34,556 bases of DNA from a virus, in the IMG/VR virus record IMGVR_UViG_3300010413_000104, positions 1-34,556 of that record, one strand, 5' to 3'. Each line of letters opens with the position of its first letter. Within the stretch, counting starts at the first letter, position 1. The notes under the pieces were generated by a model that saw only the letters and a program-made list of their open reading frames with translations, ran no database searches and had not been told where the DNA came from. Below, piece by piece: positions 2,457 to 34,387 of the stretch. A program made the position numbers and the translations under genes.

Positions 2457-2867
2457 TCATGATTCCCATTCCAGGGCCCTGATGGCAATATCTATTAATT
2501 CCCTATGCATTGCCCTGATTATCGTGTAATTAAGATTCCCATCACCCCAGGTGGCAATTTCCCACAGGGCCTGGAAATAATTCCTGTGCTGCCTGATCAC
2601 CGTTTTAAACCAGCCAGGCGCCAGGCTGCTGGGGATCACCCCATCACCATTACATCGATCACAGCCACCAGATCCCACATCCCTGGCTGCAGTATTTGCA
2701 CCCTCGCAAGCTGGGCACACTTCCCACATTTCCCCAGGGCCCACTGGCAGATCTGGAAGGCCACCAGGTGGATCTGGATCTGGATCCACCTGGTGCTGTT
2801 TTTCTGGCAGATCTGGAAACATTCCCAACTGCACTGCAGCTGGGTGATCCTGGTCAGTTTTCGCCAT
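2457..2867 (-). CDS. Zinc-finger protein with QLGMF clamp-binding-like motif
   Basis: A 136-residue protein with a DnaJ-like zinc motif (CPACEG, then CDRCNGDG, about residues 52-78), an acidic Pro-rich N-terminal half (VDPDPDPPGG) and a helical C-terminal half. Residues 13-17 read QLGMF, resembling the bacterial sliding-clamp binding pentapeptide QLxLF. The frame extends to 2927, but the ATG at 2867 overlaps the preceding gene by only 14 bases and is the more likely start. It is the last gene of the early operon, next to two winged-helix replication-type genes. A replication accessory role is inferred; no specific family is recognised. Confidence 0.7.
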   Translation of the reverse strand: MAKTDQDHPAAVQLGMFPDLPEKQHQVDPDPDPPGGLPDLPVGPGEMWEVCPACEGANTAARDVGSGGCDRCNGDGVIPSSLAPGWFKTVIRQHRNYFQALWEIATWGDGNLNYTIIRAMHRELIDIAIRALEWES

Positions 2868-3141
2868 AATCATCTGCCATTTCATCTGGCAGGATCTGGA
2901 TCCATTCTGGTGGGTGCCAGCTGGCACCTACCAGCAGCACATCCCCACCTGGATAAACTTTCAGGATCCCCATTTTTTCTAGTGTTCTCAAGTGTACTGA
3001 TACTGTTGATTTGCTCTTGAGGCCAGCAGCAGCTGCAATGGTGCTTAATGGTGGTGTTTTCCCATTCCAAACATATTTATATTGTGCAATGAATAACAGT
3101 ATTTTATATTTACTGCTTTCTTTGGGTGGTAAATTTTCCAT
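2854..3141 (-). CDS. Small winged-helix DNA-binding protein (LexA-N-like)
   Basis: A 95-residue protein made almost wholly of one winged helix-turn-helix: TPPLSTIAAAAGLKSKSTVSVH followed in sequence by LRTLEKMGILKV matches the LexA N-terminal/MarR-like pattern. There is no LexA peptidase domain, so it cannot self-cleave. The ribosome site GAAAGGATGG is good. It lies 12 bases after the putative replication initiator and is a candidate transcription regulator of the early or late promoter. No other obvious CI-like repressor is present, so it is a plausible lysogeny or late switch; that is inference. Confidence 0.75.
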   Translation of the reverse strand: MENLPPKESSKYKILLFIAQYKYVWNGKTPPLSTIAAAAGLKSKSTVSVHLRTLEKMGILKVYPGGDVLLVGASWHPPEWIQILPDEMADDYGEN

Positions 3142-3153
3142 CGATCCATCCTT

Positions 3154-3780
3154 TCAATTCTCATAATATTCTGCATATTCACCAGATGTATATTTTTTGT
3201 AATTTTCCCCAGCTGGTGGATCATCCCCAGATCTGATGGCCCACACCAGCAGGCCTGGGGTGTATCTTTCTTTTTTTGTTTGCTTAAGGTGTTTTTCCCA
3301 GCTTTCCACCAGTTCCTGGGTGATATGATCCAGGGCTGCCAGCTGGCCCCTGGTGGGCTCATAAATCCCTGCTGCTGCCAGGGCTGCCATCACACCTGGA
3401 TCCAGATCTGGATCTGCAGCTGGTGCAATGTCGGATTTTTTCCGATCTGTTAATAGGTTTTCATTATCTATAGAATCTATAGAATCAGAATCTATTAAGT
3501 AATTAACGTCAGAGTCGGAAATTCTCCGACTCTGATCATCCTGCAGCCAGGCTGGAAACATGGTTAACTGCACACCTTCCACTGTGCCCCAGCCTGCTGG
3601 TTTCCTATCCACCAGCCCCAGCTGCTGCAGCACATCCAGCCCCCTGGCAATAGTCTTATCACTGTATCCGCTTTCTATTTCCAGGGCCCTATTTGTTAAC
3701 CTGCCCTGGCTGGTGCCCAGAATGATCAGCAGCAGGGCTGGTGCCCCTTTCAGTGATCTATATAACAGGGTGTGATTCAT
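3154..3780 (-). CDS. Replication initiator-like protein (lambda O / DnaD-like layout)
   Basis: A 208-residue protein. An N-terminal winged helix (about 1-65; LTNRALEIESGYSDKTIARG) precedes an acidic, Ser/Asp-rich linker (about 80-130; DSDSIDSIDNE) and a helical C-terminal domain containing YTPGLLVWAIRSGD, a pattern seen in phage replisome-organiser proteins. Residues 71-75 are QLTMF, a possible sliding-clamp binding motif. The linker DNA holds paired TCGGA-N5-TCCGA palindromes and tandem TCTATAGAA repeats, as lambda carries its origin inside gene O. ATGA overlap (3777-3780) couples it to the upstream gene. No helicase or polymerase gene is present, so the phage should rely on the host replisome. 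Confidence 0.7.
   Translation of the reverse strand: MNHTLLYRSLKGAPALLLIILGTSQGRLTNRALEIESGYSDKTIARGLDVLQQLGLVDRKPAGWGTVEGVQLTMFPAWLQDDQSRRISDSDVNYLIDSDSIDSIDNENLLTDRKKSDIAPAADPDLDPGVMAALAAAGIYEPTRGQLAALDHITQELVESWEKHLKQTKKERYTPGLLVWAIRSGDDPPAGENYKKYTSGEYAEYYEN
3431..3535. other. Candidate replication origin inside the initiator gene
   Basis: Two inverted repeats of identical form TCGGA-N5-TCCGA occur at 3431-3445 and 3515-3529, exactly 84 bases apart, about eight helical turns. The second extends to an 11-base stem (3509-3519 with 3525-3535). Between them is an AT-rich stretch with tandem 9-mers TCTATAGAA (3467-3475, 3476-3484) and the related TCTATTAAG (3491-3499). This matches the architecture of initiator-gene origins: binding sites next to an AT-rich unwinding region. 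It is a structural inference. Confidence 0.5.
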
Positions 3781-5989: not shown

Positions 5990-6985
5990 TTATGATCCTT
6001 TCAAGTTAAGTAAATCAGCCACCATTTCCCATGAATCATCCAGATGGCCCTGCAAATTATGGATATAAATCTGCGTCACAGCCACACTGGAATGATTCAG
6101 AAATCCAGAAATATTTTCGATGGGCAGGCCTGCTGCTTTCCTCAGCATTGCTGCACTGTGCCTTAAGATGTGAATGTGCAGCCTGGCTGGATCCAGGCCT
6201 GCTGCCTGGCCATACTTTTTAATTCTCCGATTCAATTCTGGAATGCTTAATGGCCTGTTTCGATTCCATTTCCTGGGATCCACATCTGGGAAATTCACAG
6301 CTGCATCTGTTAATGGTGTGAATATATAATCATTCTCAGCTGCAGCCAGATCCAGCTGGATCCTATAATCCCTTAATGCTGTATAAACTACACCTGGCAA
6401 TTCATCCCACCTTGATTTTCCTTTCCCAGCCCATCTGTAAAATATGTGATCACCGCGCTGCTGCAGATCACCCCATTTAAGATTTCTTAATTCACTGTTT
6501 CTTCTGCCAGTAAAAATAAAAAACAGGAATAATGCATAATCCAGCAGGCCCTGGGGTGTTTCCCTATCGATCACCCCCAGCAGGGCTGAAATTTCATCCT
6601 GGGTTAAATAATCACTGTTGCTGTATAGATTCACCCTGGGCCTTAATGCCTGGCTGCTGGCTGGATTTGCATCCATTAATTTATATTCATTGATTGCAAA
6701 ATTAAAAAAACTGGAAATGGCTGCCACTTTTAGCCTGATGGTGCTGCTGGCCAGGCCCTGTGCTTTCAGATCTGCCACCCAGCTGTGCAGATCCCCAGGC
6801 TGCACATCCCAGGGATTTTTTCCTGTGTAGTCCAGCATTTCCCTGATTGCTATCTCATAGGCGCGCCTGGTGTTTTGGGATCCCCTGGAATCTAGAAACA
6901 TATAAACCATTTCAGCCCAGGCCTGCAGCTGCTGGCCAGATCCCTGCACCAGATCCCCATCCCCACTGATCACTATTTCAGCCAT
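5990..6985 (-). CDS. int: Tyrosine recombinase / integrase (Xer-like)
   Basis: A 331-residue site-specific recombinase. The N-terminal SAM-like core-binding domain (about 20-105) includes TRRAYEIAIREML and STIRLKVAAISSFFNF. The C-terminal catalytic domain (about 125-325) has the expected residues: Arg162 in TGRRNSEL, Lys188/190 in AGKGKS, His272-Arg275 in HILRHS, His298 in LNHSS and nucleophile Tyr307 in IYIH. Length and layout are close to XerC/XerD, with no arm-binding N-terminal domain as in lambda Int. It should integrate or excise the genome, possibly at a dif-like site (2351-2378). A 28-base perfect palindrome lies just upstream (6998-7025). Ribosome site AGGGA. Confidence 0.93.
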   Translation of the reverse strand: MAEIVISGDGDLVQGSGQQLQAWAEMVYMFLDSRGSQNTRRAYEIAIREMLDYTGKNPWDVQPGDLHSWVADLKAQGLASSTIRLKVAAISSFFNFAINEYKLMDANPASSQALRPRVNLYSNSDYLTQDEISALLGVIDRETPQGLLDYALFLFFIFTGRRNSELRNLKWGDLQQRGDHIFYRWAGKGKSRWDELPGVVYTALRDYRIQLDLAAAENDYIFTPLTDAAVNFPDVDPRKWNRNRPLSIPELNRRIKKYGQAAGLDPARLHIHILRHSAAMLRKAAGLPIENISGFLNHSSVAVTQIYIHNLQGHLDDSWEMVADLLNLKGS

Positions 6986-28379: not shown

Positions 28380-30473
28380 TCACATTTCAGCCACTGTGAG
28401 GCAATCACAGCCCCTGTGGTAGGGCCCATGTTTAACTGGTTTCGAAATATTTAATGGCCTTTCTGCCCCATCTGGCTGGAAATCACCCACATCCAGAATG
28501 GGGTGCTGGATCCCCACCACCTTGCCATCCAGGGCCCTGCAATATGGGCAGGAATCCCCAAAGGCCACAGATTTTATATACTGCACCCCAGCTGCCAGGT
28601 AAATGGTTCTTGCAGCTGCATTGTTTAATCTGTTGCTTTCTTCCATCCCGATCTGGCCAGCCCTTTCATCTGGCCAGCTTTCCAGGGTTTTCAGCACTGG
28701 ATCCAGTGGATCATCCAGGGCCTGCAGGGCCTGCCCAATAATTTCCTTAAGCTGATCCAGGGATCTGGCGCTGTGCCTGAATGCATAGGCTGCCATATAC
28801 GATTCCAGGAAATCATCCAGGGCCTGATCATATCCACTGGCGCCTGTTTCCTCACTGGCCGCGAGGGCCACCATATCTGAATATGATCTGAATGTGGGCC
28901 CCAGCTGCCTGGTGATAAATTCGCTGTGCTGATTGTAGAAATCATCCAGCCAGGCCAGAAATTCCTGCACCAGGGCTGATTCATCATTCAGCATTTTTTT
29001 TGCCTGGGATCCCACATCATTTTTTTCACGCCTCAGGATCCTGGCAGCTGCATCAGTGATTAATGGCTGATAGGTGCCCATTAACTTGTGTCTGTATCTG
29101 ATGGCCACACTGGCCCTGTTTTCCAGCTGGGGATCTGGATCCACCTGGTGATCCAGCTGCTGCCTTTCTGGGGTGGATCTGTTGATCACTTTCAGCAGAT
29201 CCCTGGCCTGGGATCCATCTATGGATCCAGCCTCACTGATGGAAATCATATTTAATGGGATCAAATAATCATCACCACCTGGCACTGGATTCATGTTTTC
29301 CCTGATCCTGATTTCATTGGCACTCATCCAGCCATTCTGGCGCGCTATCCCGTAGGCCTCAAATCTGGTTTTAATGTCGCCTCTCAGCAGGCCATCCACC
29401 AGAAATTCTATAAAATATACTTTCCTTTCAGCTGGTGTTAATAATTCCTTGCTTAAGATCTGCTCAATACGCTTTAACCAGGGCATTATGCTATATACAA
29501 CAAATTCCAGACTCTGCTGCTCAATATTGCTGAATGTGGCCCTGTCCAGATCTGCCAGCATATGGGGTGGGATCCTGAATATACGCGCTATTTCACCCAC
29601 CTGAAATTTTCGAGTCTGTAAAAATTGCGCGTCCTCTGGTGGGATGGTGATCCCTTTAAATGTCATCCCCTCTTCTAATATTGCTATCCTGCCACTATTC
29701 CCAGGGCCCTGGTGCATTTCATTCCAGGATTGCCTTAAGTTTTCCCTGGCCTTGCCTGATAGCTGTGCTGGGTGTTCCAGCACACCCCCAGGCTTTGCTC
29801 CATTCTCGAATATTCCCGCGCCATAGGCCTGGGCTGCTATCCCCAGCCCCACAGCTTTCCTGTGGTATTGAATAGGTGATAGGCCCACTATTCCATCCAT
29901 ACTTAACCCAGGAATATGCAGCACATTCTGAATGGGTGTATTTCTCAATTTATAAACCAGCTGCCTGGTGTCTGGATCCCTTTCCACCATCATTTCATCT
30001 GGTGGCTGTGGAATAATTTCCTGCAGCTGCCCACCTGCAGTATAAATTAATTGATTGTAAGAGTTTCCCCAGGTGGCCAGGTGCGCCATGATGGTTTCCC
30101 TGGCAGTGTAGCTGGTCATTTCATCATTAAATTGATCATGTAATAAATAATACAATGGGTGATTAATGGCCCTATCCCTGCCACCATCCTGGCGCCTTTC
30201 GTATAAAATCAGTGGAATGCTTGCCACTGTTTCTGCTAGGATTCTCACTGCAGCCCACACTGCAGAAAATGTTAATGCATTCCCTGGGGTGACATAAATG
30301 CCAGCTGATTGAAACACATATGGAAATAATTCCCGCGCTATTTCACCCGTTAATGCATAATCTTTTCTGCTATCCTGCAGGCCCTGGATCCCCAGGCCTG
30401 GCTGGCCAGGCCCAATAATTGGGCCACCCATGCTGCTGCTGATCATTTGCCTGATATTTTCAATCAATCCCAT
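28380..30473 (-). CDS. Portal protein fused to MuF-like minor head domain
   Basis: A 697-residue protein. Residues ~55-430 are an HK97-family portal: TFSAVWAAVRILAETVASIP, LYERRQDGG, GIVGLSPIQYHRKAVGLGIA and ARIFRIPPHMLADLDRATFS. Residues ~450-697 resemble the SPP1 gp7/MuF minor head protein, with N-N-A-A-A-R-T-I-Y, CPYC (642-645), LDGKVVG and GCDCL (689-692). Portal and MuF proteins are usually separate. The fusion would place 12 MuF copies inside or at the portal vertex. Start ATG near GTGGAGCAAAAAA. Confidence 0.92.
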   Translation of the reverse strand: MGLIENIRQMISSSMGGPIIGPGQPGLGIQGLQDSRKDYALTGEIARELFPYVFQSAGIYVTPGNALTFSAVWAAVRILAETVASIPLILYERRQDGGRDRAINHPLYYLLHDQFNDEMTSYTARETIMAHLATWGNSYNQLIYTAGGQLQEIIPQPPDEMMVERDPDTRQLVYKLRNTPIQNVLHIPGLSMDGIVGLSPIQYHRKAVGLGIAAQAYGAGIFENGAKPGGVLEHPAQLSGKARENLRQSWNEMHQGPGNSGRIAILEEGMTFKGITIPPEDAQFLQTRKFQVGEIARIFRIPPHMLADLDRATFSNIEQQSLEFVVYSIMPWLKRIEQILSKELLTPAERKVYFIEFLVDGLLRGDIKTRFEAYGIARQNGWMSANEIRIRENMNPVPGGDDYLIPLNMISISEAGSIDGSQARDLLKVINRSTPERQQLDHQVDPDPQLENRASVAIRYRHKLMGTYQPLITDAAARILRREKNDVGSQAKKMLNDESALVQEFLAWLDDFYNQHSEFITRQLGPTFRSYSDMVALAASEETGASGYDQALDDFLESYMAAYAFRHSARSLDQLKEIIGQALQALDDPLDPVLKTLESWPDERAGQIGMEESNRLNNAAARTIYLAAGVQYIKSVAFGDSCPYCRALDGKVVGIQHPILDVGDFQPDGAERPLNISKPVKHGPYHRGCDCLTVAEM

Positions 30474-30668: not shown

Positions 30669-31196
30669 TCACCACAGAAAATTCTGCACTGCCCACACCA
30701 GGATCTGTTTCCTGTAAAGCACCACAGCCCACACCAGGCCACCCAGGGTTTTTGCTAGAAATTGCCCCAGGATCACCCAGGGAATAAACAAACCAAATGC
30801 AATGGATGGAAATAATATAGAGTCCACTAGGGCTGCAGCCACATTGCTGCCATTAATCCTGGTGAATTTTGCACGATCACCCAACAGGATATAAATGGCA
30901 GTATCCACCATTCCAGCTGCCAGGAAGGCCACAAAACTGGCCAGGGCCACTGCAGCTGATTCCCTGTTGATCAGATATGACAAACAGGATCCAGATCCCA
31001 CCAGCAGCAGCATTTTCCACCATAGTTTTCTGCCTTTCCATTTTTCGTGTAAACCATCCCTGACTGTTAAATCAAATCCTATAAACAGGAAGGCCACCCA
31101 GATGGCTGCACTAGGCCCAAATTCTGCCACCAGCAGATTTGCTGCCACTATGGCTGCCAGGTAGGTGGCCACAAGGATCCTGCTATTAGAAATCAT
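30669..31196 (-). CDS. Queuosine-precursor transporter, VUT/YhhQ family
   Basis: A 175-residue integral membrane protein with about six helices. The family signatures are present: FLFIGFDLTVRDGLHEKWKG (D-L..R-D..H..W) and INGSNVAAALVDSILFPSIA (S-N-V-A-A..V-D-S..F). E. coli YhhQ imports preQ0/preQ1, the deazaguanine bases. It overlaps the DpdA-like gene by 11 bases and has a perfect ribosome site (AGAAAGGA). With no queuosine biosynthesis genes in the genome, its role here should be to supply the base for DNA modification. Confidence 0.85.
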   Translation of the reverse strand: MISNSRILVATYLAAIVAANLLVAEFGPSAAIWVAFLFIGFDLTVRDGLHEKWKGRKLWWKMLLLVGSGSCLSYLINRESAAVALASFVAFLAAGMVDTAIYILLGDRAKFTRINGSNVAAALVDSILFPSIAFGLFIPWVILGQFLAKTLGGLVWAVVLYRKQILVWAVQNFLW

Positions 31197-31803
31197 TTAA
31201 AAATCCTTTCTGCTGATTCAGCCACACCAGGTGTGGGCTGAATCTGGCCTTAATTATGCTGGGCCCATAAATGGGTGCTGTGCCATCTGCAGAGTAGATT
31301 CCCAGCCTGTGATATTTTGTTAATTTTCCAGTTCCATTGATTCTGCCCGCATGTATTTTAACATTAATTGCCCTGGCCCTGCCAATCACATCCAGCAGGC
31401 CCTGGGATTCCCGCCATCGATCTGATCCACCTATAAATATAAAATCCAGGCCAGCTGGAAATGGGTGATCTTCTGATCCATCCTGTGCTACATAGGCCAC
31501 TGGCCACCCAGCCTGCTTAATGCCAGCTGCCCATTCATCCCACAGCTGCAGGGTGGCCCTGGAATCCCCCCACTTATCTGGCACTGTCGCAAATAGGCAC
31601 CTGGATCTGTAGGGTTTTAGTATTTCCAGATGATTCAGAAATCTTTCTGGATCATACTTGTTTTTATAGGCGCCATTGTCCACTGCCCACTGCCTGCCCT
31701 CTATAATCCCGATGGGCACCATCTTATGGGTTTCTGCTGTCATTACGCCATAATATTGATTGAATCCCACCATGCTGCCAGCCTGTGGCCATAAATAAAT
31801 CAT
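31186..31803 (-). CDS. dpdA: DpdA-like 7-deazaguanine DNA transglycosylase
   Basis: A 205-residue member of the phage DpdA branch of the tRNA-guanine transglycosylase superfamily. It exchanges guanine in DNA for a 7-deazaguanine base. Motifs along the chain: WAVDNGAY (39-46), ATVPDKWGDSRATLQLWDEW (72-91), YVAQDG (104-109), FIFIGGSDRW (121-130), IHAGRING (150-157) and IYSADGT (169-175), closely following the D-N-G-A-F, PD..GD, AQDG, GG...W, GR-x-N, SxDGT series of DpdA proteins. It is short, as in the phage-type enzymes. It lies immediately upstream of, and overlaps, the VUT transporter. Confidence 0.85.
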   Translation of the reverse strand: MIYLWPQAGSMVGFNQYYGVMTAETHKMVPIGIIEGRQWAVDNGAYKNKYDPERFLNHLEILKPYRSRCLFATVPDKWGDSRATLQLWDEWAAGIKQAGWPVAYVAQDGSEDHPFPAGLDFIFIGGSDRWRESQGLLDVIGRARAINVKIHAGRINGTGKLTKYHRLGIYSADGTAPIYGPSIIKARFSPHLVWLNQQKGFLNDF

Positions 31804-31806
31804 AAG

Positions 31807-32013
31807 TTAATCCATTTCTATATGGTTTTCCAGTTCTGTGGCCAGCTGGATCAATCCAGCCTTAAACTCTGCCACAGTGGGTGCCTTGATCACTGCTAGA
31901 AATGCGCGCCTGATGGCCAGCAGCTGCTGGGGATCCTCTGCAGCCAGGGCCCTGATCACCTGGGCCAGCTGCAGATCTGTTTTTTTATCATCCCCAGCTG
32001 GATCCTGGATCAT
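31807..32013 (-). CDS. Small helical protein after TerL
   Basis: A 68-residue protein, helical throughout: DLQLAQVIRALAAEDPQQLL, then FLAVIKAPTVAEFKAGLIQL. It overlaps the TerL stop (ATGA) and precedes dpdA by 3 bases. No family recognised. It might assist either terminase or the modification enzyme; translation coupling on both sides suggests it is truly expressed. Confidence 0.65.
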   Translation of the reverse strand: MIQDPAGDDKKTDLQLAQVIRALAAEDPQQLLAIRRAFLAVIKAPTVAEFKAGLIQLATELENHIEMD

Positions 32014-33680
32014 ATGGCAGCCAGGCCCCTTTCATCATAAATGCTGCCACTGCTGTTTCTCATTGCCAGATCCAGGCCCATGATCATTGCCACTGCCCCA
32101 TCTATTTTTTCCATTGATTTCTGTTTATCCGGTTTAATGTTTCCTGCAGCATCTTCCACCACCATCACATTTGCCATATTCCAGGCCAGCACCGGATGGC
32201 CACCATGTGCAATTTTTTTGCTTAATATCAGCACTTCCAGCTGTTTGGTGGGTGGGCTCATGCTGGCATATCCCTGACCGAAGGCCACCACATCCAGCCC
32301 ATGATCCTGCAGCTGGATCTGGATCTGGGTGGCACCCCATCTATCGAATGCAATTTGTCTTAAATCATAGGATTCTGCATCCTGAAATAATTGGGCCAGA
32401 ATAAATGCCTGATCCACCAGATCCCCTGGGGTGGCATTCAGAAATCCCTGCCTTAACCATACATCATAGGGCACACGATCATTTTTAACCCTGTCTCTAA
32501 TATTCTCAGCTGGAATAAAGAATCTAGGAATCACCTGAAATGGATCTGCTGGGGATTCTGGTGGAAACACAAGCACATAAGCTGTTAAATCTAAATTAGA
32601 GGATAGATCCAGGCCTGCATAACAGATTCTGCCTTTCAGGCCATTTTCATCCACTGCTGCGCTGCAGGCCTGCCAGGTTTCTATGTTGATCCACCTGGCC
32701 TGGTTTTCTGTCCAGATGTTAAGGTGTAATCTCAGAAATGCATTTAACCTGCCTGGCATTTCCCTGGCCCTGGTGGCAAGCCTTAACATATCATCCATTT
32801 TTTTTGAGATTCCTATATTTGGATTTGCTTTAATCCACAGATCTGGATCATCCCAGGTTTCCAGATCATCATCATCCAGGGTATAAATGATTCCGAAAAA
32901 TGAATCATCCTGAACGATTCCACTCAGCACCTTTTTTGTATATTCATTCAGCTGGAAACATAGACTCTGCCGATCAAATCCTGCAGTGGTGATGGCTGAC
33001 ATTAAAGGCTGGCGCCTGGCGCCTGTAGCTGTTTCCAGCACATCCCACAGGCCTGCTGATTTCCATGCATGTAATTCATCCATTAATGCTGCATGTATAT
33101 TTAAACCGTCTAAGGTATCTTCATCAGCCCCTAAGGGCTCATACTTGCTGGCAGTGTTTTCAATATGCAAATTATCCTTAAATATTTTGATTTCTTTCCT
33201 CAGCCTGGCGCTGGCTTTAACCATCCTGGTGGCCTCACTGTGGGTGATCTTTGCCTGATCCTTTTTTGTGGCTGCAGTGTAAATTTCTGCACCAGGTTCC
33301 CCATCTGCCAATAACAGATATAATCCCAGCCCTGCATGTATTGTAGATTTTCCATTTTTTCTGGCCACTTCCTGGTATGCTGTTTTAAATCTTCTGGTGC
33401 CATCCGTTTTTTTCCATCCAAACAGATTCCACATAATAAACTGCTGCCAGGGCTGCAGGATCACTGGCTGGCCAGCCCATTCCCCTTTACTATGCTTAAG
33501 CATTGTAAAAAATAGGATCACCAGAATGGCTGAATCCTCATCGAAATATAAACCACGATCACCAGCTGTTTCCAGATCTGCCAGATGGCGCTGCACTGCC
33601 AGCTTAACCCACTTACATGTTAAGATTTTTCCATTAACCACATCTTGGATGTACTGCTGGGCTGTTATTTCCATAACCAT
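32010..33680 (-). CDS. terL: Terminase large subunit (HK97-like)
   Basis: A 556-residue packaging motor and nuclease. The ATPase domain has the Walker A-like VARKNGKST (105-113), Walker B AALMDE (198-203) and the coupling region SAITTAG. The RNase H-like nuclease carries Asp359 and Asp365 in YAGLDLSSNLDLTAY and later DGAVAMIMGLDLA. N-terminus YIQDVVNGKILTCKWVKLAV is typical. Length is normal. Unusually, the ATG has no visible ribosome site, and 218 bases of structured DNA separate it from TerS instead of the usual overlap. Confidence 0.95.
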   Translation of the reverse strand: MVMEITAQQYIQDVVNGKILTCKWVKLAVQRHLADLETAGDRGLYFDEDSAILVILFFTMLKHSKGEWAGQPVILQPWQQFIMWNLFGWKKTDGTRRFKTAYQEVARKNGKSTIHAGLGLYLLLADGEPGAEIYTAATKKDQAKITHSEATRMVKASARLRKEIKIFKDNLHIENTASKYEPLGADEDTLDGLNIHAALMDELHAWKSAGLWDVLETATGARRQPLMSAITTAGFDRQSLCFQLNEYTKKVLSGIVQDDSFFGIIYTLDDDDLETWDDPDLWIKANPNIGISKKMDDMLRLATRAREMPGRLNAFLRLHLNIWTENQARWINIETWQACSAAVDENGLKGRICYAGLDLSSNLDLTAYVLVFPPESPADPFQVIPRFFIPAENIRDRVKNDRVPYDVWLRQGFLNATPGDLVDQAFILAQLFQDAESYDLRQIAFDRWGATQIQIQLQDHGLDVVAFGQGYASMSPPTKQLEVLILSKKIAHGGHPVLAWNMANVMVVEDAAGNIKPDKQKSMEKIDGAVAMIMGLDLAMRNSSGSIYDERGLAAI

Positions 33681-33898: not shown

Positions 33899-34387
33899 TC
33901 AAGATTTTTTGATCTGCTTTCTCAGATTAAATAATTCATCTGCCAGGCTGGTTTCTTCTGGTGGATCCACCTGCAGCCTGGCCCTGGCTGTGGGTGTTAA
34001 TCCAAAATCTGCAGCATAGGATCTGAATGCCTTGCTGGCCTGGTTAAAGATCAGGCCAGCAGGGTGGCGCCTGATGATTCCCTTTTCATCGATCTGGAAT
34101 AAACCATCCTGATCCAGGGCCCTTTTCGCCATCATCATCTGATCATAATGTATGCATAGATTCTGCAGGGCTGGCAGATCCACTGGTTTTAAAATTCCCA
34201 TAGCATCCAGATCTGGTGCCAGGGCTGCCCACAATTTTTTCCCATCTTTCCCGAATAGGCCATAGGGTGTTTTCAGATCTGGATCCCCAGGTGGCTGTGG
34301 CTCATTTTGATTAATGGGCCTTTTGCCTGGATTCCCACCCAGCTGCTTAATTTGGGCTGGTTTTGGTTTTCTGCCTCTAATCGCCAT
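33899..34387 (-). CDS. terS: Terminase small subunit, P27 family
   Basis: A 162-residue DNA-recognition subunit of the packaging terminase. The N-terminus AIRGRKPKPAQIKQLGGNPG followed by KRPINQNEP is the P27 signature. The middle has WAALAPDLDAMGILKPVDLP, and the end has SYAADFGLTPTARARL, also diagnostic. Ribosome site AGAAAGGAAATATAG lies before the ATG and is still in phage-type sequence. The phage-like composition ends about 30 bases upstream. Confidence 0.93.
   Translation of the reverse strand: MAIRGRKPKPAQIKQLGGNPGKRPINQNEPQPPGDPDLKTPYGLFGKDGKKLWAALAPDLDAMGILKPVDLPALQNLCIHYDQMMMAKRALDQDGLFQIDEKGIIRRHPAGLIFNQASKAFRSYAADFGLTPTARARLQVDPPEETSLADELFNLRKQIKKS

Follow-up and report, generated by a model that had tools for sequence, protein, structure and literature searches.

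The coupling of a compact DpdA-like enzyme with an importer, in phages that show no synthesis of the imported base, is a recurrent and well supported module, and one example was analysed here in the virus record IMGVR_UViG_3300010413_000104 of IMG/VR, which in its entirety makes up the window (34,556 bases, classed as linear). The pair of genes that it carries probably lets the phage import, and not make, a base that shields its DNA, and the same pairing is seen again in many phages that are not related. In the explanation that we judge best, and reasonably probable, two overlapping genes would work as a module that imports and inserts a 7-deazaguanine base: a VUT/QPTR protein would bring its precursor (preQ0 or preQ1 being the most likely) into infected cells, and a compact TGT/DpdA-like enzyme would swap guanine for the imported base in nucleic acid, most likely replicated phage DNA, a modification that would shield this DNA from restriction. 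We infer the substrate, DNA as the target, the chemistry and the protection. The relevant genes of the window are as follows.

33899..34387, minus strand: terminase small subunit (PF05119, E 2.3e-23)
32010..33680, minus strand: terminase large subunit (TerL), upstream neighbour of the pair (PF20441, E 1.7e-49; PF03354, E 7.3e-36)
31807..32013, minus strand: 68-aa ORF with no assigned function, between TerL and the gene of the 205-aa enzyme
31186..31803, minus strand: putative compact DpdA/TGT-like transglycosylase of 205 aa, ATG start, phrog_15826 (E 2.4e-27, plus fold and residues)
30669..31196, minus strand: VUT/QPTR (YhhQ-type) transporter of 175 aa, ATG start (PF02592)
28380..30473, minus strand: portal, downstream neighbour of the pair (PF04860, E 3.8e-112)
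5990..6985, minus strand: tyrosine integrase (PF00589, E 3.2e-23; phrog_1, E 6e-42)

On the minus strand, the right part of the window reads terminase small subunit, TerL, 68-aa ORF, 205-aa gene, 175-aa gene, portal, protease and capsid. An earlier note on this DNA had described two overlapping genes between TerL and portal. Both ORFs were confirmed, each with an ATG start and with an overlap of 11 bp, as were the flanking genes, all on the minus strand, but the 68-aa ORF, which has no Pfam match and only a non-significant phrog match, intervenes after TerL. Its start overlaps the TerL stop, and three bases separate it from the 205-aa gene. Given these overlaps and this three-base spacing from TerL to the 175-aa gene, the enzyme and transporter genes are likely co-expressed with TerL. 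A scan for promoters and terminators gave promoter-like sites that were not in excess and terminator-like sites that were marginal in number. The tyrosine integrase indicates that the phage is temperate. No tRNA was found in the window, and its capsid has no tblastn match among phages.

Relatives whose TerL is about 54-56% identical to that of the window carry other genes of DNA-modification type between TerL and portal:

L097, 3268-5453: DndC-like PAPS-reductase protein (PADLOC DndC, E 2e-55) and a radical SAM protein
L098, 2598-3443: radical SAM protein
L099, 2972-3724: C5 cytosine methylase (PF00145, E 3.3e-29)

The TerL-portal interval has the appearance of a slot that takes up cargo genes for DNA modification or anti-restriction.

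The 205-aa protein is assigned to phrog_15826, a family annotated as of unknown function (E 2.4e-27), as are 64/64 sequences of the working alignment, and tblastn retrieves mycobacterio-, arthro- and rhodophage relatives about 33% identical to it, several of which are annotated as 'DpdA-like tRNA-guanine transglycosylase'. A scan of viral contigs with the single sequence found none, and one based on the alignment found more than 500. All six elements of what had been called a DpdA motif series are present (VDNGAY at position 41, VPDKWGD at 74, VAQDG at 105, FIGGSDRW at 123, GRING at 153 and YSADGT at 170), but they are motifs of the compact DpdA-like family phrog_15826 and not of DpdA proper. 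They do not arise by chance, since none of 64 homologues departs from D42, P75, D76, Q107, G109, G125, G126, H151, G153, R154 or D173 and the ordered pattern was confined to family members among 11,948 ORFs scanned. In the AlphaFold model, D42, D76, Q107, G125, G126, H151, R154 and D173 lie at or just past the predicted strands 39-41, 69-73, 102-106, 121-124, 149-152 and 171-173. The residue series of TGT and DpdA (Asp, Asp, Gln/His, Gly-Gly and an Asp nucleophile) is present in order, an assignment made by order and not by superposition; D102, D156, Q203, G230 and D280 of Zymomonas TGT presumably follow the same order as D42, D76, Q107, G125-G126 and D173 of the window protein. D173 would be the likely nucleophile, and D42, D76, Q107 and G125-G126 would form the base pocket. 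In Escherichia phage phiG7 (L010:4881-5473), a compact DpdA-like gene is split over two frames near an intact DpdA1, and SHIN8 has the same split.

The structure of the enzyme was predicted from an alignment of the window protein with its IMG/VR relatives (pLDDT 95.7, pTM 0.91), and the model is a TIM barrel closest to TGT or DpdA. Foldseek against the PDB places a TGT first (5egr, E 1.2e-4), and tenth place goes to 7ui4, 'DNA preQ0 insertase DpdA' (prob 1.00, E 2.3e-4), with a TM-score of about 0.5; the structure matches in BFVD include phage proteins named queuine tRNA-ribosyltransferase. The best match to the model in BFVD, A0A0F7L9Z1 (E 3.3e-9), is a marine virus protein of 499 aa, which suggests a fused form of the enzyme. 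Structural comparison with TGT and DpdA had been named beforehand as a test that could refute the assignment, and it puts the protein inside the superfamily. By hhalign, phrog_15826 is linked to the singleton-type DpdA class of PEAT2 and AB3P2 (96.5%, E 9e-10), to which Salmonella phage 7-11 contributes an ORF (E 2e-80) and which is itself linked to DpdA1-type proteins (98%, E 2.5e-13); the direct link between phrog_15826 and DpdA1 is weaker (83.5%, E 8e-6). Direct comparison of the phrog_15826 profile with bacterial TGT is not significant (0.3%) and is uninformative, because the singleton-type DpdA class fails the same comparison. Membership of the 205-aa protein in the TGT/DpdA superfamily is therefore supported by predicted fold, profile links and invariant residues of catalytic type.

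The family name DpdA would be too strong for this protein, as it stays short of the cut-off of all DpdA and TGT family models tested. The protein has no match in Pfam, where the TGT model PF01702 does not detect it, or in NCBIfam, including the curated DpdA model NF041059; PADLOC DpdA falls short of its cut-off (E 0.067), and no meaningful match came from sequence searches of the PDB, whether the query was the protein alone or one of its profiles. Nor does the phrog_15826 profile match the DpdA of CAjan, 9g, Dp-1, nt-1 or 7-11, phages whose modification has been measured. Phages are reportedly also home to DpdA3 and DpdA4 subfamilies, said to have been described by Cui in 2023; among phages taken as candidate carriers, phiST and SH-Ab 15497 gave no match and CP220 a weak partial one (E 8.8e-4).

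The founders of the superfamily are tRNA enzymes, and the fold of the window protein comes nearest to tRNA-guanine transglycosylases; the enzyme might accordingly modify RNA of the phage or host (tRNA) and not DNA, queuosine-type bases being added in infection. We regard this as quite unlikely. TGT has a C-terminal zinc and tRNA-contacting region, which the 205-aa enzyme lacks; the profile links lead to phage DpdA and not to bacterial TGT; some hosts are devoid of both TGT and QueC; and related phages place DNA-modification genes in the same TerL-portal slot.

The 175-aa protein matches PF02592 (Vut_1) with E 9.5e-9 and 36.2 bits against a cut-off of 27.2, and has six predicted TM helices, which bears out its earlier description as a VUT/YhhQ-family transporter. 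It falls below the cut-off of the TIGR00697 'queuosine precursor transporter' equivalog (E 9e-4, 19 bits vs 50.95). An HMM search against DpdA and QPTR families, as the earlier note had suggested, is thus positive for PF02592 but leaves the DpdA models and TIGR00697 below cut-off. The AlphaFold model (pLDDT 95.0) consists of six long helices and a short C-terminal one, and its only match by Foldseek against the PDB is a weak one to an ECF S-component (E 0.6). Like E. coli YhhQ (b3471), a proven preQ0/preQ1 transporter (PMC11130926), the protein belongs to the PF02592 family, and the two have N20, S87, D98, D125 and K149 in common; yet they are only 22% identical and differ in length (221 aa in E. 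coli, 175 aa in the window), the window protein being a predicted transporter.

That the pair is now functionless, as decaying or idle cargo of a temperate phage, is highly improbable. The frame-split relative of phiG7 and SHIN8 would suit such a fate, but the window genes are intact and overlapping, the enzyme keeps all family-invariant residues, and both models have a pLDDT of at least 95.

We collected 114 phrog_15826 loci (80 from IMG/VR and 34 from GTDB). A VUT gene is present in 28/114, always on the same strand and adjoining the enzyme gene, 14 times before and 14 times after it, with the matched domains 18-391 bp apart. Equally, queC, queD or queE lies within a few genes of the enzyme in 28/114 loci, representatives being confirmed by the QueC, QueD and QueE models, and a single locus (L046) has VUT and que together. 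Among 30 control loci anchored on TerL, neither was found (0/30 for VUT, 0/30 for que), and the enzyme loci differ from these controls by Fisher's test for VUT (1.2e-3; 1.3e-3 when dereplicated) and for either neighbour (7e-8; 2.8e-6 when dereplicated). Mutual exclusivity of VUT and que goes in the expected direction and is not significant (Fisher p 0.17). To explain the VUT link on the enzyme tree takes about 15 changes, at least six of them forced by well-supported branches, and the pairing is therefore not one inherited synteny.

The arrangement noted earlier, an importer in place of synthesis genes, recurs in other phages. QueC was found in seven of 23 whole records, all with DpdA1- or DpdA2-type systems, and is absent from the window and from all phages in which a VUT gene adjoins the DpdA-like one. 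In agreement with the earlier remark that no biosynthesis gene is visible, a search of the window record gave no queC/D/E match: neither queC nor queD was detected in it, and its six-frame translation has no match to queC/D/E profiles built from related loci. VUT pairing is found also with an enzyme class of 240-275 aa, in PEAT2, AB3P2, Tbat1_6, ECO111 5-P, RCIP0319, Opt-719 and LHE71.

Host genomes bear on the possibility that what the enzyme puts into DNA is preQ0 or preQ1 made by the host, with the transporter merely topping up the pool or serving host tRNA queuosine. Phages 7-11 and MED16 are indeed modified with dpdA alone, apparently from host preQ0 (PMC6884629, PMC8306585). Moreover, EC151 (PMC8310023) and Seuratviruses have synthesis genes together with a preQ0 transporter, the VUT matches of phiG7 and CAjan being weak, and some VUT-bearing prophages (G008, G010, G020 and G040) reside in genomes containing QueC. 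In contrast, QueC and TGT are both missing from the hosts of four other VUT-bearing prophages (G014, G018, G021 and G036), so that neither production nor use of such a base by the host is apparent in them. We hold a host-made base to be unlikely as the explanation of the pair. It counts against import and insertion, for its part, that the presence of VUT shows no relation to host QueC (QueC in 4/8 with VUT vs 8/26 without).

A further point against import and insertion is a clade of 16 members (Nocardia, Nonomuraea, Actinomadura and others; L143, L147, L150, L151, L153, L157-L160, L162, L164, L165, L167-L169 and L173) that lacks VUT as well as que neighbours; QueC and TGT are both absent from several of its host genomes. 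This Streptosporangiales/Nocardia clade, with no visible source of 7-deazaguanine, would fit an enzyme that kept the fold but acts on another nucleobase or removes a base, with a VUT protein carrying a different metabolite; the substrates of the VUT family do vary, queuine in some cases and preQ0/preQ1 in others (PMC11130926). However, the recurrent neighbours of the enzyme are queC, queD, queE or VUT, known routes to 7-deazaguanine, and a different substrate appears very unlikely.

Import of a 7-deazaguanine base followed by its insertion, which we favour, has a precedent as an idea. Uptake by DpdA-only phages was already proposed by Hutinet in 2019, who noted phage YhhQ, left open the base source of dpdA phages devoid of preQ0 genes, and saw no pattern in phage YhhQ genes (PMC6884629). 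The DNA of Salmonella phage 7-11 carries dADG (PMC6884629), although only about 0.02-0.13% of G is dADG in 7-11 and MED16, and modification is absent from Mycobacterium phage Orion, which is DpdA-only and without base source (PMC6884629, PMC8306585). Singleton DpdAs may therefore be of little importance. In EC151 a transporter stands alongside a full pathway (PMC8310023). New here are a much smaller enzyme family and how widely it is spread, the division of its neighbourhoods into make or import, and a location inside the packaging operon, where the TerL-portal slot seems to receive DNA-modification cargo.

The window enzyme resembles the singleton DpdAs (7-11, MED16; the third group of Hutinet 2019) in being a DpdA-like enzyme without queC. 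PEAT2, AB3P2, Tbat1_6, LHE71 and Opt-719 are VUT-paired members of that class, with VUT directly adjoining in PEAT2 and others, and PEAT2 is already annotated with the DpdA-like/VUT pair. Yet these enzymes have about 240-275 aa and a His where phrog_15826 has the invariant Q107, and the 205-aa window enzyme is only a distant relative. DpdA1 of Seuratvirus and Nonagvirus (CAjan, 9g; with folE/queD/queE/queC) shares the superfamily and presumed chemistry, but is about 300 aa long and accompanied by synthesis genes; phiG7, R29Z and Sonali contain both types, DpdA1 and compact, in one phage. Finally, the actinophage members of phrog_15826 (StevieRay 53/54, ReqiPine5 gp03/gp04 and Aoka 38/40) also have a VUT partner and no QueC, but are about 33% identical to the window enzyme, have VUT first, in reversed order, and lie at another genome location, with one small gene between enzyme and VUT in Aoka. 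In ReqiPine5, the immediate neighbour of the DpdA-like/VUT pair is gp02 (L005:5610-6527), a PAPS-reductase-domain protein.

A pattern is now clear for one compact DpdA-like family, whose genes adjoin a VUT importer in some loci and que genes in others. As a wider and distinctly more tentative proposal, phrog_15826 might represent a separate, minimal DNA-guanine transglycosylase subfamily of about 205 residues, whose members number in the hundreds across phage contigs and prophages; with a QPTR transporter encoded by the phage it might form a self-sufficient mobile two-gene cassette importing environmental 7-deazaguanine and inserting it into phage DNA, even in hosts without a queuosine pathway. 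The untyped phrog_15826 becomes a testable enzyme, and import instead of synthesis becomes testable with two genes. If true, the escape of such phages from restriction would hinge on bases that other microbes release. One phage contig (L025) has the compact DpdA-like gene in triplicate (100-714, 756-1391 and 2729-3355), together with two queC-like genes, queD and queE.
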